This document shows, piece by piece, positions 15,295 to 62,640 of a stretch of DNA of 64,000 bases. How positions within the stretch are numbered: position 1 is the stretch's first letter; every line of letters begins with the position of its first letter. Under the pieces are notes generated by a model that was not told where the DNA came from, searched no databases, and saw nothing but the letters and a program-made list of their open reading frames with translations. This DNA is from Fomitopsis serialis (taxonomy: Eukaryota; Basidiomycota; Agaricomycetes; Polyporales; Fomitopsidaceae): NCBI RefSeq assembly GCF_022376445.1, contig NW_025955063.1:81359-145358 (forward strand), read 5' to 3'. A program made the translations under genes and the position numbers.

Positions 15295-15913
15295 CTAGGC
15301 CCCATCGACGATGTCTATGCGATATTGAGACTTTTGACAGCCAGCGCGTTGAACTATCGAGAGACGCACCATGGTAACCGATGTAGTTTCCGCCACCCGG
15401 GCTCGTGCGACGAGAGAGCTCTGAAGATGGCGTCAGTCCGAAGCCGGGTGGGCCAGTAGTCTCGTTAGTGCTATCGACGATGTCTGTCGGAATAATTTAG
15501 ACCGTGGCATGTAAATCAGATCTAACAAGGAACACACCGAGAGTACCGACGTAGTTGCCTCCACCCGGGGCGGTGCGACGAACGAGCTCTGTGAGAACGG
15601 AATGGTCAGATTGACTCGTTATCATGCAGGCAGAACAGCAAACCATGAGCCTCCTCGTCGGTCTTGTCGGTGATGTCTGACAGAGCATTAGAAGTGTCAC
15701 TGTCCGTCGTGTACGAGTCGAGAAGAAACACACCATTAGTACCGACGTAATTGCCTCCACCCGGGGCGGTGCGACGATCAAGCTCTGTGAAGGGTATCAG
15801 ACCGGGCAGTTGACGTACAGGTAGCACAACATACCGCTGGTCTCAGCGATCGGAGCTGCCAAAGCAACGTGGAAGAGCGCGACGCCGAGGAAGACAGCTG
15901 CGGTGAACTTCAT
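15295..15913 (-). CDS. Secreted repeat-peptide precursor, locus I (GGGNYVGT cores)
   Basis: Six exons: 15835-15913, 15734-15784, 15644-15676, 15538-15588, 15370-15483 and 15295-15314. All introns are phase 1 and the sum is 115 aa. Exon 1 is a signal peptide (MKFTAAVFLGVALFHVALA, then APIAETS). Cores follow a dibasic RR: RRTAPGGGNYVGTN, RRTAPGGGNYVGTL and RRTSPGGGNYIGYH. Between cores are acidic spacer exons (DITDKTDEEAH, DIVDSTNETT..). In the third unit spacer and core lie on one 114-nt exon, as if an intron had been lost. The last exon encodes DIVDGA and a stop. By analogy to Kex2-processed fungal precursors, cleavage after RR would free the Gly-rich Tyr peptides. A TATA-like ATAAAAGGG lies about 45 bp upstream. 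Confidence 0.82.
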
Positions 15914-17166
15914 GTTGGTCAGTAGCACTAAGCTGGTTTGTCCCCCTTGCTGGAGGCCCTTTTATGTTCCTCCACCCAGCGCCAAGTGGCTGGAAATTAG
16001 CCATCTGGCCTTAGCCCCGGGTACATACCGACGCCGACGGTCTGGATGACTTTGCCCATTGCACGACGAGCGTCGAGAAGGCGCAATTCGATGTAGGCTA
16101 TCCCCAGACAGACGTATCGTTGGAAATGTCGAAAACTGCGAGGGACAAAACGCACCCGCGTCAGGTCCCAAATGTCGATGGTGAAGACCCGGATGGAGTG
16201 CGCCTGGAGTGAATTGAGGACATCAAGGTCCGGTTATCCTCAACATGCCTCCGCTGGCAGCCTAAGCGTAGTTCTTCGTGTTCATTGTTGGCATCAAACA
16301 GCGGATTTCTCGCGGAACGGAGACATGGACTCTTCTCCATTACGACCGGCAGAGAAGGTAATTTGTGAATCCGTATACTGAGTAATCTGGAAACACGGAG
16401 TGAAATCTCAACGCGAGACGCCACGCATGGAGAACGTACCTACGGTAGAACACAGACGTCTGACGGGTCGTCTACCAGGTGGTGGGAACCAGTCAGAGAC
16501 GCAAGGAGAGCCTGATCATGTCAACCCAGCCAATATGGTCAGTAAGCAATGCTACATGCCACTGGGTGGCGGTACTTCGAGCTCGGGCTGATGCAGAACG
16601 GTCCGCGAGCGTCGCCCGTCATTGACAGGAAAGTTGCGTTTCCTGCTCAGATCTTTTAGTCTCGTCATATCGATTCGGATACCAATCCAAAGTATCATGC
16701 ACTCACCACAATCGCCGCGACCATGACTAGCTCATACATGACGCTCTGTGGATAAGTCAGCCATCGGGGGAGTTTCAAGGCCGTTCGTCGGTAGATGGTA
16801 GCTCCCACACACCTGGGTCCTACTTGATTCCAATGCAAAATGCACCATAAGGAATCTTCTCTAGGCATCGATCCCCGTGTCCTGAACAGCCACAAAGGGG
16901 ATCTACGCTACACGTGGATAGCCGGCTTGTCAAGGGATCGGGCATGACCGTTTGTCGGCCGTGGTAGTGAAACGCTGAACCAGGTCAACGCCTCGGCAAG
17001 TGTCGGTTCCGAAGATACTCCTCAGTCCACCAGCCCCAAACCAGACATGCGTAAAGCAACTCGCACTTTGCTGCACGATTGAGCGAATACAACCAATGTA
17101 TACAACCTTCATATGTCCGCAATCCCGACGACCAGAGAATTTGACCCACCCACAGCGATCCCTTGC
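15914..17166. other. Intergenic, no gene recognised
   Basis: Contains the locus I promoter at its left edge. The rest shows short ORFs without recognisable features. Confidence 0.4.
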
Positions 17167-51290: not shown

Positions 51291-52893
51291 TCAGACAGTC
51301 GTACATGCGGCATCTTCCTCTGTCAAAGAATTGTGTTAGTTGCCATGTGCATACACCGGGACAGTGGACAGTATCTGACCTTCGCTCACATCGACGCCAT
51401 AAATGCCGCCAACGTGCGGTGCTAAGTGAACGACGCATGTCAGATTGTGTCAGCAGCATGAAGGTTGGAGGGATTACCGCGCGTCTCGATGTCTGTACAA
51501 AATCAAATCAGTCAATATCACATGTATTCCACGTAGCAGGTAGAGCCTGACCTTCGGCATCAACACCATAGATACCACCGACATGGGGTGCTAAACAGTC
51601 GTTGGGTCGGATTATTGTAGGTCAACCGCAAGGTTCCCAATAAGACGTACCACGAGCTTCAAGGCCTGCGACAACGAAGTCAGACATCGAAGTTCAAAGG
51701 AAAGCCATCACTAAGTGAATGGGATCTGACCTTCGTCGGCATCGACGCCATAGATACCACCGATGTGCGGTTCTGAACCATTGTCAGTCGGCATGTCTAA
51801 GTATTGTGTGCAAAACAAAGCTCAAGGAAGTCGTACCGCGTGCCGTAAGGTCTATAGATCACAGTTAATCAGTAAGCAGAGATCAATCTTGCCCGAAGGA
51901 TATCTGACCTTCGTCAGCGTCGACACCATAAATACCACCGACGTGTGGCTCTATAATGATCCCGGATATCAGTATCGTGCGCTGTACACAATTCAGCAGA
52001 CCTCGTACCGCGCGCCGTAAGGTCTGCACAACTCCATCAGCGCAACGAACGCGGTCAAGAAGTGGACCATATCTGACCTTCATCAGCATCGACTCCATAA
52101 ATACCGCCGATGTGCGGTTCTAAGCGAATGATATGAAGAACATCAGTATCATGCGACATGAAAAAACTCAGGAAATAATCTACCGCGCGCCGTCAGGTCT
52201 ACACAAGTTGGTGATTCAGTACGACGTATGCTGTCATAAATAGACATTAATAGCTTACCTTCCTCACTATCGACGCCATAAATACCGCCGACGTGTGGCT
52301 CTGTGACAACAATTCTCGGAGTATTAGTACGCGGTGCCGTACCAAATCAGATGAATCTGTACCGCGCGCCGTGAGGTCTGCACAATACAGGCATTCAGTA
52401 CGGCAGGCGTTACTAGCAACCGAAAAAGGCTCACCCTCGTCGGCATCGACGCCGTAGATGCCGCCAACATGAGGTTCTAAGTCAAGGATCGTCAATGCTG
52501 TGCATCACAATGTCATTAGACAAGCCATGTACCGCGCGCATCAAGGTCTGCGCAAGACACGTCAGTCGGCGCGATATATATTTTCAGTGGGCAGACAAGA
52601 TCTGACCTTCGGAGTCGACACCGTAAATACCAGCGACGTGGGGTGCTAAGTGGCACGAAGAGCAAGACATCAAATGTCAGACTGATGCATGGTAGAATTT
52701 TCAATGGTATATACCGCGCTTGTGAAGGTCTGCTACACAAGACAGTGAATCAGCACCAACAAACGAGTCGAGCAGACATTATCTGACCGTCGGAGGAAGA
52801 GGCGTATAACGCACCGCGAAGGGGTGCTGGCGCGGCAACGGTGACCTCGAGCAGGGCGCAGGCCAGGACAACGAAAGCGGTAGTGAGCTTCAT
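51291..52893 (-). CDS. Secreted repeat-peptide precursor, class II locus H (18 exons, 8 cores)
   Basis: I can splice 18 exons with 17 phase-1 introns into 194 aa. Exon 1 (52788-52893) is a signal peptide (MKLTTAFVVLACALLEVTVA). Then eight pairs follow: a 15-nt processing-site exon and a 39- or 42-nt core exon. Site exons: 52715-52729, 52533-52547, 52364-52378, 52184-52198, 52009-52023, 51837-51851, 51651-51665, 51478-51492 (DLHKR, DLDAR, DLTAR x4, GLEAR, DIETR). Core exons: 52607-52645, 52435-52476, 52259-52300, 52078-52119, 51909-51950, 51731-51772, 51552-51590, 51380-51421; products such as APHVAGIYGVDSE and EPHVGGIYGVDADE. Last exon 51291-51319 (EEDAACTTV, stop). Only the first site is dibasic KR; the rest are monobasic xR, so the processing enzyme is uncertain. 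Confidence 0.87.
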
Positions 52894-52960
52894 GCTGATG
52901 AGACGATGCGACGCGAAAACCTGGAGGAGTGCGATGGTCGAGCAGCATCCTCTGCTCTGC

Positions 52961-52966
52961 TTTTAT
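52961..52966 (-). promoter_or_regulatory. TATA box of class II locus H
   Basis: On the minus strand the box reads ATAAAAGC, then about 30 bp later 'catcgcactcctc' before the ATG at 52893. The same pair precedes loci G (near 48597) and J (near 56671) and the truncated copy at 46830. It differs from the class I promoter. Confidence 0.7.
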
Positions 52967-55424
52967 CCCATACACTCAACCGCCCACGACGTACGTTGTC
53001 CTGCGAATAATATTTGTTGAGAAATTGACGTCGCCCGGGGTCGGTGCTGTCTCTCCGCGATGCACACGTAAAGATCCTAGTAGACCCTGGTGTTCTTGTT
53101 GGTCGCAAACCTGATACAGGAACGATTCAGGTATCTTGTGCCAAACACGGTGCAGCACCACATCCGACGCTTTCTCCGGAGTCAAAATGCCTTGGCGGGC
53201 GCGGGCCCAAGAAGATGGTTGTCGACTTCTTGAAAGTCTGGACGCAGCGAACATGGTAGACGTGGGCCACAGTGGTGCAGTACAGTAGCCTATTCTGGCG
53301 TCGCATGTCACGGGTGCGTTGATCGGTCCTCATGTTTGTATGAGAGGCATCGCGAAGCTGCCTGCATTCTCCGTAAACGTGGGCGCCGGCACAAAGTCGA
53401 CGGCTTAAATGTCGAGTCGAACGGATTGTCCAAAAGCAAATAGGAGGCGGCGTCCATCATAAAGACATTCTTGTTGTTCAAACAGACGGTATGATCGAGG
53501 CTCCGACCATCCACCGTTGTTCTGATCCGCCGTATATGTCATCTCGGATCTGTACAAGGCGTGGCTATCAGATATTTGTACATAAAATACAACACGTACC
53601 TGCGCCCATTGATTGATTTACGGCCACGGGCTCGCACTCAGCATTCGCGCGCGAGGACTTCCTCGCACGGCGCTGTTTCACGTTCGGCGGAGTGAAAGTA
53701 ACGATCAGATTTCCTGCAACTCGCAAGATGCGGTGGAATCGAGGCTTCCGCACAGTACATCGGTTCGCGGCGCATGATGGTCCCTGTTGGATAGCCCTGA
53801 GCACACGTTAACACGCGATGTCTGAACGATGCCTAGCGAACCTCCATGGTCTCGTCTGCATCAGCCCCGTTTAATTCGCTCCGAGTCCTCATAGGCTTGT
53901 CAATAATATGGCACCTTCGGGGAATGTGCTCCTTCAAAGCGGCATCTACGAAACGACACGCCTGTTTACTCCATCTACCGAACCGCACGGGGGTCTGTAC
54001 TCGGTCTCGATGCGTGAAGTGCCTGTGTACGTAGTCGAAAGCAGGGACACCGGCGCTTCACAACGGTAGGTACGATGTGTCATGAACTGAACCTGACAGA
54101 GACATTTCCCGAAGAGCCTGACCATGGCGGATCAGATGCTCAACAACAGCCCACGGATGCAGACGGGACAAATTACTGTTGATCGGCCTGTTGCGCCTGA
54201 TCAAACACTGCAAAATACCGTCCGGTGCTGGGTATAGCATCAGCTGACCTCTCATGCAACGCTAGCAGCGAAATTTACCTGTTCAGCGGGCACCCGACTC
54301 AGGGTAGATCTGTCGCCCCAGTGTCATACTTGCCGGCGGGCGGTATCGTAGACTGCCTATATTATACGCGCCCTATTAAGCAATACCGGACTCAGCGATT
54401 TTATCGGCGTGTGTTAGGACAGCATACCGACTCGAGGCAATACTGAGTGACGAGCAGGCTGCAGCACTAAATGGCAGCTGCGCGCAACATTTGATTCGTG
54501 ACAAGCATCGACGCGAACATATGGGCATGTAATGGTCGAGACCAGGTAGACGAGTGCAAGGTGGAGGCGAGGCGTACCTCTAAGCTACCTGCGAGGTGCT
54601 TGTGTTCCCCGTCACGCTTCGGAATTCCGCGCACTTGGGATGTCGCATAGCATGCTCCGGCAACGTCGCACATAAGGCTGGACAGTCTTGTACAGTGGAT
54701 TCCATTCAGGTGATTACCGGTAGCGTCTGAGGCGGGACATGCGTATGGTGGACACGTCGGCAGTGCGTTTGGATAAATGAGTTGGCTAACGGAAGTACTG
54801 TAGTAGGAGGAAGAGGAAGAGGAGCGCGTCGGGAGACGCGATCCTGGAATTGCTGACTCAGCCTCGGTGGTCCGCCACCTCGATCGGGCCGCTCGCTCGT
54901 GGCGGTTGCCCACTGTTTGCTGAACGGGCTCATACATATGCGTCGACTCGGGATCAACGGCGCCACAAACAGCTCTCTACACTTTACGTTAACTGTTCGG
55001 GACGAGCCATTGCCTTCTGCCCTCCCTACCTCTTCAACGGGCGTACCATCAGTACGCATCGAACCTCGGAACAGACGCGAACGACTCAGCTGTTCAACGT
55101 TGTTTACAATTAAATCCTGGAATACGCAAATCCGCTGGAAGAGTCGACTGGTTCCGCATAGCAGTCGACTTGTTGCCCTCTTGATGGCTTTCCTGTCGCA
55201 TCTCAGACGGCCAGACCTCACATCCATGCAGGCTCATTCACGCCGTCATAGCATGAACGCGCATAAGTTACGCGTAAGCACCAGATATCCCTCCAAACAC
55301 TCCCCAGTACACTGACGGGTTCCGGTGAAAACTATTTCCTTACTAGGCACGCGTCGATGCACCGGGTCTTGTAAACTCCACGGCGCATCTCGACACGACG
55401 ACCTTCACACCGCTTCAGGCTCCG

Positions 55425-60462: not shown

Positions 60463-62640
60463 ACACGATTCATGCCAACGAGTGCTATCCTACTTTTGGC
60501 ATTGTTGGCGGTGGGTACAGATGCCCTGTCCCCTAGACATAGACCTCTCGGAAGAAGCTTCGTCAAGAAAAACCAGATACGGCGGGACGCAGCGATTGTG
60601 GATCGCAATGGGACCGAATTGCCGCCTCTCAACACGACATACTACTTTGATCAGTTGATCGACCACACTAATCCCAGCATTGGGACGTTCAAACAGCGAT
60701 ATTGGCACACATGGGAGTTCTATGAAGCTGGTAAGCAGATTTCGAAACGTAGTACATCGTCGCTGAGAAAAGAGGCATAGGCGGGCCAATCATTCTGACC
60801 ACGCCTGGAGAAGGGAACGCAGAGGGTGTGTGTCCTCTACCAATTGAAGGGTCTGTGTTGAATGTATTCCGCCATAGGCTCTGAAGACTCCCTCGTAAAC
60901 TCCACGATAAACGGGATGATCGCCCAGGAACTGAATGGATCGACGATCGTTCTGGAGCACCGTTATTATGGCTATTCAAACCCATATGATAACCTTTCCG
61001 TCGAGAGCCTGCAGTATCACACGATCCAGCAAGCGATTGACGATTTCGAGTACATCGCATACAACGTGAAGCTGCCGATGCCTAGTGGCGACCATGTTAC
61101 ACCGGACGAGGCGCCATGGATTCTCATTGGGGGCAGCTATGCCGGCGCGTTAACCAGCTTCACTAAAGTCAAGTAGGTTACCTTGCGCTCTTCCTATGGT
61201 ATCTGATGCTAATCGCTCTCATCCCTGTAGCAAACCTGACGTGTTCTACGCTGCATGGTCCTCGTCAGGTGTCGTGGAGAGTATCGCGTACGTCAAACGA
61301 CTGCATTCTCTTCTCGGTCCTATTGATGAGGATATCAGTGACTATTGGGGCTACTTCAATATCATTCGAAAGCATATGCCACAGAATTGCTCCGCTGATG
61401 TACAGGCGGTAATCGGGCACGTCGATTCCGTGTTCACATCTGGGAATAATACTGCCATCAACGAGATCAAGGAACTTTTCAGCATGCATCTTACACACCT
61501 CGATGACTTCGCGAGTGCCTGTGCGTATTGCTTCTCTGATGGTTTCGTGATTGCACTGGTGACACGCCTGACGACACAGTGCAACACCCACTCTTCCCAT
61601 GGCAAGGCCTCCAACCCTCGTCTAACCTGTCGGACCCTCTATTCTTCCATTTTTGTGACGCGTTGGAAGTCAAGGATAATCAGACCGCACCGTCCGAGGG
61701 ATGGGGTCTTCAGAACGCATTGAATTCATGGGCCGGATTCTGGAAAGAGGTGTGCTATCAACGCTGTGAGTTCATTTGTTCACCCTTGATGAAACATTGT
61801 TGAGCAGTGGAGGTCTCGCAGATTGCGATGATCAAGACGCTGAGTCAGTTCAAATTAGATGGTTCATAGTCAGGAACACATTAGCTGACGATCCCGCAGC
61901 AGAACGTGTTTTGGGATATACAATGCAAGCGCAACTTATTACACGGACCTTACTGTCAACAACGCCGATCGTTCATGATACTGGATCCTGTACGTGGTTG
62001 TACAGCCATGGATACTATACATCGACAAGGTCGTGCACTGACATGCCTCGACAGTTGCAACCAAATGGGCTTCTATCAAGACGGAGCGCCTGATGGCGAG
62101 CCGACTCTTGTTTCTTGTCTGATCCAGCCAACTCATTGGGAGGTTAGTCACGTAACAACTGTCTTGAAGGATCTAACCAAGAAGCATGCTAATGTTCCCG
62201 GAGGCGTTCAACTCCACCAACGCCGAAGGTGAACGAGACGAATGCGGCGTATCATGGATGGTTCATCAAGGCTGATCGCCTGTTCTTCTCGAACGGAGAG
62301 AGTGAGTAGAAGCCTGAATAAACATGTCCTATCGCTTATGCAAACACCATTCAGAGGACCCATGGCGCGTTGCGACTGTCTCCGCTGACGGGACAGCCTG
62401 TCAAAGCACTGCCATGCAGCCTATCGTCATGGGTGATGGCTACCATTGCTCAGATATGGATGCCGCGAATGGGGAAGTCGATTCGACAATCGCTGCTGTT
62501 CAGATCTCAGACTCAGGGCATAGCTGCGATGAAGAGCTGGCTGGAGACATGGGAGCCCCCCAACCCGTCGATAAGTACTACGAGACGTACTGGTGATCAC
62601 TTGGTGATCACCATTTTGGACTTGACATTTGCGATGGTGA
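60463..62640 (+). pseudogene. Serine peptidase S28 (Pro-X carboxypeptidase type), decayed
   Basis: Secreted prolyl peptidase family. The signal peptide MTRFMPTSAILLLALLAVGTDA begins at 60463. Then YYFDQLIDHTNPSIGTFKQRYWH, GPIILTTPGEGNAEG, STIVLEHRYYGYSNPY, the nucleophile in WILIGGSYAGAL, and PDVFYAAWSSSGVVESIADYWGYF span well-formed introns. Later blocks are HFCDALEVKDNQTAPSEGWG, NASATYYTDLTVNNADRS, CNQMGFYQDGAPDGEPTLVS, ADRLFFSNGE, DPWRVATVS and GDGYHCSDMD (the catalytic His region). Defects: TGA at 61976-61978 where WYW is expected, a frame change near 62205 (PEAF to TPPTPKVNETNAA) and another near 62505 (AAVQ to SQTQGIAAMKSWLETW). None lies in a homopolymer. Probably a true pseudogene. 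Confidence 0.78.

Follow-up and report, generated by a model that had tools for sequence, protein, structure and literature searches.

Can a gene whose protease sites and peptide cores lie on separate, alternating exons encode a secreted peptide precursor, and does its splicing bear on how the peptides are released? Locus H raises this question; it lies in a 64,000-nucleotide stretch of the Fomitopsis serialis genome, the whole of which was analysed and is called the window here. Fungal peptide mining seeks repeated cores and dibasic sites in predicted proteins, and H would evade it twice, as its exons are small enough for gene finders to miss and its sites mostly carry a single Arg. If confirmed, the locus would suggest that a class of mushroom secreted peptides has stayed hidden, and it would provide a natural test of how a fungal spliceosome copes with eight exons of 15 nt within a single gene. 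With exon borders that coincide with the predicted protease cuts, it would also raise the question of whether splicing can tune peptide release. Judged from its DNA, H appears to be an extreme version of a type of fungal peptide precursor that is already known.

The site and core motifs served as guides for a gene model of our own, in which H runs on the minus strand from an ATG at 52893 to the end of the stop codon at 51291, a span of 1603 nt (Table 1). Seventeen GT-AG introns of 54–69 nt, all of phase 1, split the locus into 18 exons; spliced, it would yield 585 nt encoding 194 aa and a stop, with an intron share of 63.5%. This re-modelling agrees with the first-pass annotation on coordinates, counts and phases and on the statement that nearly two thirds of the gene is intron, and it supports the proposal of a putative secreted repeat precursor with site and core on separate exons. 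A signal-like exon is followed by eight pairs of a 15-nt site exon and a 39- or 42-nt core exon, and then by a tail. The site exons encode DLHKR, DLDAR, DLTAR (four times), GLEAR and DIETR, while the cores (two of 39 nt and six of 42 nt) are of the type A/E-PHVGGIYGVD with an acidic end. YAG lies upstream and GTA downstream of all eight 15-nt exons, which are thus microexons in the sense of exons of at most 30 nt between canonical introns. The N-terminal end, MKLTTAFVVLACALLEVTVA, looks signal-peptide-like as judged by eye, and the paralogues open with similar exons. A second in-frame donor within exon 1 (last exon base 52815) would shorten the pro-region by nine residues. The donor GTCAG, whose third base is off-consensus, is found in seven of the nine introns downstream of exon 1 or of cores. 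Branch-point-like motifs are present in all 17 introns; this motif is loose and has no control, and it is not counted as support. Upstream of the ATG in the 48-kb and 56-kb paralogues, a [GT]ATAAAAG box is located at 75 and 79 nt, respectively.

Table 1. Features of locus H and of related precursor genes, with positions in the window
Feature	Position	Strand	Basis or remark
Promoter-like box GATAAAAG	52960..52967	-	74 nt 5' of locus H ATG
H exon 1, signal-peptide-like N-terminal end and pro-region, 106 nt	52788..52893	-	gene model; paralogues with similar exon 1
H exon 2, site exon of 15 nt, DLHKR (sole dibasic site)	52715..52729	-	gene model
H exon 3, core APHVAGIYGVDSE	52607..52645	-	gene model
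H exon 4, site DLDAR	52533..52547	-	gene model
H exon 5, core EPHVGGIYGVDADE	52435..52476	-	gene model
H exon 6, site DLTAR	52363..52377	-	gene model
H exon 7, core EPHVGGIYGVDSEE	52259..52300	-	gene model
H exon 8, site DLTAR	52184..52198	-	gene model
H exon 9, core EPHIGGIYGVDADE	52078..52119	-	gene model
H exon 10, site DLTAR	52009..52023	-	gene model
H exon 11, core EPHVGGIYGVDADE	51909..51950	-	gene model
H exon 12, site DLTAR	51837..51851	-	gene model
H exon 13, core EPHIGGIYGVDADE	51731..51772	-	gene model
H exon 14, site GLEAR	51651..51665	-	gene model
H exon 15, core APHVGGIYGVDAE	51552..51590	-	gene model
H exon 16, site DIETR	51478..51492	-	gene model
H exon 17, core APHVGGIYGVDVSE	51380..51421	-	gene model
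H exon 18, acidic tail EEDAACTTV and stop	51291..51319	-	gene model
48-kb paralogue, same split layout, two units, 94 aa	47924..48526	-	motif-guided scan
48-kb paralogue, exons	48526-48412, 48350-48336 (DLEAR), 48272-48237, 48176-48162 (GLEKR), 48092-48048, 47982-47924		
56-kb paralogue, two 15-nt site exons (DMEVR, DLDKR) and one unsplit site in a 90-nt exon, 99 aa	56030..56596	-	
Precursor genes, minus strand	near 15.4-15.9, 47.9-48.5, H, 56.0-56.6 and 63.0-63.4 kb	-	
Precursor genes, plus strand	near 28.1, 30.7, 33.3 and 37.3 kb	+	

The reality of such small exons was assessed through their number and their pattern of change. H yields eight site exons in a scan that required YAG before, GTR after and an in-frame 15-nt exon, whereas 1000 dinucleotide-shuffled versions averaged 0.002 and never exceeded 1. 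Applied to the window as a whole, the scan picked up nothing on the plus strand; its 13 minus-strand matches comprise 12 in H and the genes at 48 and 56 kb, and a single one elsewhere, at 1941. Variable columns across the eight cores number 1/11, 2/11 and 11/11 at codon positions 1, 2 and 3, and pairwise differences between cores amount to 12, 22 and 152 at the same positions. Mean pN is 0.137 against a pS of 0.590 for site and core together, and 0.097 against 0.666 for the cores alone. Eight of the ten positions of PHVGGIYGVD are invariant across all cores, and every one of the eight units retains the site Arg, Leu or Ile at P4, and Pro as the second residue past the cut. The site exons alone show a weaker codon-position bias (differences of 38, 30 and 55), partly because their third residue is free. 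Mean nucleotide identity between units is 76% for cores and 71% for site exons; intron identity between units is 47% and 49%, versus 41% and 44% for shuffled introns, a possible faint trace of unit descent that is too small to rely on. Given the codon-position pattern, the near-shuffled introns and the site-exon counts, the exon reading, small exons included, is best explained by selection on a protein. The layout is real in the DNA, well supported as a coding structure and unusual in degree. A chance repeat as the origin of the pattern is ruled out by the shuffles and the codon-position pattern.

A second copy of the locus allows its state of preservation to be judged. Contig C406 matches the window between 26.7 and 55.4 kb at 97.7–98.9% in pieces, with a gap near 38.3–38.8 kb, and is taken as the probable second haplotype (an allelic contig) of the window region on C6. 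Between the two alleles, exons 2–18 differ by one silent change only, the introns carry nine substitutions and two 1-nt indels, and exon 1 carries three substitutions and a 1-nt deletion in C406, where it lies at locus 7381 on the minus strand. The deletion shifts the frame of the rest of H, which then runs into a stop after 92 residues. This frameshift may reflect a null allele or a fault in the assembly, and, unless it is the latter, it would count against H being essential. Copies on C119 were rejected as H alleles; this contig matches the window at 59.8–64.0 kb at 94–99% and holds further paralogues. Several of these relatives look decayed by eye: the signal exon of one has a frame break, other sequence interrupts another, and one has lost a donor, with read-through of a short intron remnant. 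The frameshifted allele, together with the broken frames, lost donor and inserted stretch among the C119 relatives, would fit a former precursor that is now decaying or silent, its second-haplotype allele being null and its relatives pseudogenes. However, the C6 copy keeps every splice dinucleotide, frame and stop intact, and the near absence of change in exons 2–18 beside the substituted introns also argues against decay, which we regard as the least probable of the readings weighed here.

The window holds about nine related peptide-precursor genes between 15.3 and 63.4 kb, as found by motif scan and by eye. Six of the nine carry site and core within one exon, with GG..Y-type cores and DL-KR-type sites; the four on the plus strand have unsplit unit exons of 33–48 nt, e.g., DLDKRTGGEVYITPPD. 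Besides H, 15-nt site exons, one or more per locus, were seen at seven loci of the genome, of which several are decayed; these include four places on C119 and one on C85 with a single such exon, among 13 loci scanned. A genome-wide site-exon pattern, stricter than the window scan and catching six of the eight H site exons, gave 21 matches in the whole 66.2-Mb genome versus two for a reversed control. Eighteen of these fall within the H gene family or its alleles (eight on C6, six of them in H; seven on C406; three on C119) and three elsewhere. With 15-nt site exons in seven other loci, the split layout is a family trait and H its amplified extreme, not a unique invention. In two public F. serialis protein records the unit exons are joined as they are read here, three from the 28-kb gene in P0001 and four from the 37-kb gene in P0003; P0001 passes through a GTCAG donor, though it runs on into the last intron. 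These records appear to provide outside support for small phase-1 exons in the cluster. A search with the spliced H protein scored 7997 candidates of 107–340 aa (0.55–1.75 times the query) and found no homologue at E 0.001, so H is apparently unannotated at these protein lengths.

Several features around the family were also observed. On C119, at about 1500–2250, a relative of the 56-kb gene combines, by eye, an unsplit site exon (DLEKRGFLGAAYASPYLESD) and a split DLDKR in one gene. On C85, at about 1490–1950, a distant relative with one unit has a 15-nt GLEIR exon; no other was seen beyond C6, C406 and C119. In the minus-strand precursor at 15370–15940, 51-nt exons (EL.RRTAPGGGNY..) seem by eye to alternate with a linker-type exon, DITDKTDEEAH. 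An orotate phosphoribosyltransferase gene is located at 11.3 kb of the window.

Whether the small exons serve a regulatory purpose depends on how the transcript is spliced. Intron definition is the usual fungal mode, and under it we propose that 15-nt exons would be no obstacle to splicing. Each of the 17 short introns would be recognized as a unit and all 18 exons joined, so splicing is most likely constitutive. All internal exons of H are of phase 1-1 and multiples of three in length, and each junction codon begins with G in the model; any exon skipping would consequently stay in frame, with no stop possible. Computed retention of single introns gave a product shorter than normal in 14 of the 17 cases and a longer one for introns 5, 7 and 17. 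It had been suggested that splicing decides whether neighbouring cores are separable, which is not supported as stated; the gene model is compatible with this idea through its frame-keeping symmetric exons. In the corresponding scenario, splicing would act as a switch, in which skipping of a 15-nt site exon fuses neighbouring cores and the cell picks between single peptides and longer fusions. Every subset of the exons stays open, and a microexon switch has been reported in Trichoderma (PMC11121469, from the portion of that article used here). Nevertheless, intron definition would include the site exons constitutively, and the phase-1 rule fits the unsplit cluster genes too (the scan imposed phase 1, and P0001 and P0003 agree) and so calls for no special purpose. 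We therefore consider such a switch highly improbable. The same low expectation attaches to the idea that the protease sites are detachable cassettes, in which regulated skipping of symmetric 15-nt exons ending at the scissile bond would programme proteolytic release.

With constitutive splicing, peptide release would depend on the sites themselves. Our preferred reading, to which we give a probability of roughly 0.6, is that H encodes a secreted precursor for about eight acidic peptides of nearly the same sequence, made by constitutive splicing and Kex2-type cutting after the site Arg, from a tandem-amplified unit. What the sequence itself establishes is the exon structure and its conservation, the gene family and the tandem unit; splicing, secretion, each cleavage step, the mature form and any activity are deduced from these. 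A Kex2-type protease in the secretory pathway would cut past the Arg that closes each site exon, which would place the intron one base past the scissile bond. The site exons had been described as encoding only the processing site; with the expected cut after the terminal Arg, this description does not hold, as D-L-T-A would stay on the C-terminal end of the preceding core unless trimmed. The 15-nt exon would accordingly be the P5–P1 stretch of the preceding core and not a free spacer. One of the eight sites, DLHKR, which lies ahead of the first core, is dibasic, and Lys is found only at residues 2 and 39 of the protein. The seven sites between cores end in DAR, TAR (four), EAR or ETR, with the Lys position occupied by Ala in six and Thr in one; a codon path from Lys (AAG) through Thr (ACG) to Ala (GCG) would fit the site codons. 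Since seven of the eight sites are without a dibasic pair, their ready cleavage is uncertain. An aliphatic residue at P4 is accepted by Kex2, the yeast alpha-factor site being an example. The DLHKR site would be cut first, and the LxAR-type sites, with a single Arg and an aliphatic P4, would be weaker.

After cleavage, a Kex1-type carboxypeptidase would take off the site Arg. Ala-Pro or Glu-Pro follows the Arg directly in all eight units, and an STE13-type dipeptidyl peptidase may strip this leading dipeptide to give peptides like HVGGIYGVDADEDLTA; other candidate ends expected from H are EPHVGGIYGVDADEDLTA(R) and the APHVGGIYGVDAE type. The product would most likely be a linear signal or effector-type peptide. 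A single match to a Kex2-type P domain lies in the genome, on C68, and the matched stretch contains a stop; DPPIV-type domain matches are on C79, C376 and C792. An exon match to an S28 serine peptidase lies beside the precursor cluster, at 60862–61173 on the plus strand. Removal of X-Pro dipeptides is known for some S28 enzymes, and it is speculative that this peptidase trims the cluster peptides. As for the order of events, we infer that a two-exon unit of about 175 bp (site exon, intron, core exon, intron), already present in the paralogue family, was tandemly duplicated to eight; selection would then have preserved the peptide and left silent sites and introns to drift.

A different fate for the same protein would follow if only DLHKR were cut. 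H would then have lost peptide release and would make an intact 154-residue acidic repeat protein of the wall or surface once the pro-region is removed. The protein has a single KR pair, ahead of the first core, and the replacement of Lys at the other seven sites is in line with this proposal, as is the strongly acidic character of the 154-residue remainder. Its pI was computed as 4.05; both test peptides received the same figure, probably the lowest that the calculator returns. Yet a mere spacer would not need the Arg, the Leu or Ile at P4 and the Pro after the cut that all eight units retain. Moreover, in the part of Vogt 2022 (PMC9769878) considered here, other mushroom precursors expressed in Pichia gave products apparently cut after a single Arg, with XA/XP dipeptides removed, consistent with single-Arg cleavage, and STE13-type processing in mushrooms was inferred from them. 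The single cut is thus unlikely, albeit a reading to be kept in mind beside the multi-peptide precursor that we prefer.

The comparison with known systems places H among repeat precursors while setting its exon layout apart. Among the matches listed from the open-licence literature, mostly titles and abstracts, none showed a fungal precursor in which site exons alternate with core exons; within that scope, the statement that no fungal precursor with this layout has been described holds. The exact peptide text HVGGIYG returned no open-licence papers. Dikaritins, which are UstYa-type cyclised peptides from KEX2-processed repeat proteins (KEPs), resemble H in their repeat precursor and in the Tyr of each core. 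Dikaritin identity by neighbourhood was rejected, as none of the 33 UstYa (DUF3328) exon matches listed in the genome lies on C6, C406 or C119. The listed matches are on C41, C113, C151, C285 and others, with several near one another; other parts of the genome may thus hold dikaritin-type clusters.

Microexons have been described in P450 genes of Phanerochaete chrysosporium (PMC1184071), and the Xlr2 microexon of Trichoderma is reported to act as a splice switch (PMC11121469). Like those of H, they are exons of a few codons between short introns. In the portions of these two articles drawn on here, they are single or scattered over genes, whereas H packs eight into a single gene, and each of these ends where a protease cut is predicted. 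Likewise comparable are the unsplit KEP genes of the H cluster (28.2, 30.9, 33.4 and 37.5 kb), which share phase-1 repeat units, DL-KR-type sites, GG..Y cores and a similar putative signal sequence; unlike H, they place each unit on one exon of 33–48 nt with no intron at the cut. The Rhodofomes roseus records P0002 and P0004, known from proteins alone, likewise have DL-KR-type sites, GG..Y cores and a similar signal sequence.

A described class close to H is that of the fungal KEPs (Le Marquer 2019, PMC6339444; Umemura 2020, PMC7329392; Vogt 2022, PMC9769878). In the main text of these three papers, "exon" and "splic" were not found, and "intron" appears once, in a methods remark. KEPs and H have in common a signal-like N-terminal end, tandem near-identical cores with sites between them, and clustered relatives with true DLxKR sites. 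The internal core repeats that define KEPs are present in H as eight cores, at the 76% identity given above, and the XA/XP dipeptide after the site that marks alpha-pheromone-like KEPs is found as AP or EP in all eight units. Le Marquer 2019 (PMC6339444) describes, in the portion used here, an STE13-type signature in some basidiomycete KEP precursors, and the alpha-pheromone-like Basidiomycota KEPs with this signature have X-Pro directly past the site, as do all eight H units. A single X-P dipeptide per unit sets H apart from these, and the likeness concerns the dipeptide. H differs from KEPs in that seven of its eight sites carry a single Arg, that site and core lie on separate exons and that it has 18 exons. 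Strict KEP membership does not extend to H, because dibasic KEX2 sites are absent between its repeats; judged by its sequence, it is best described as a putative KEP-like relative inside a KEP cluster.
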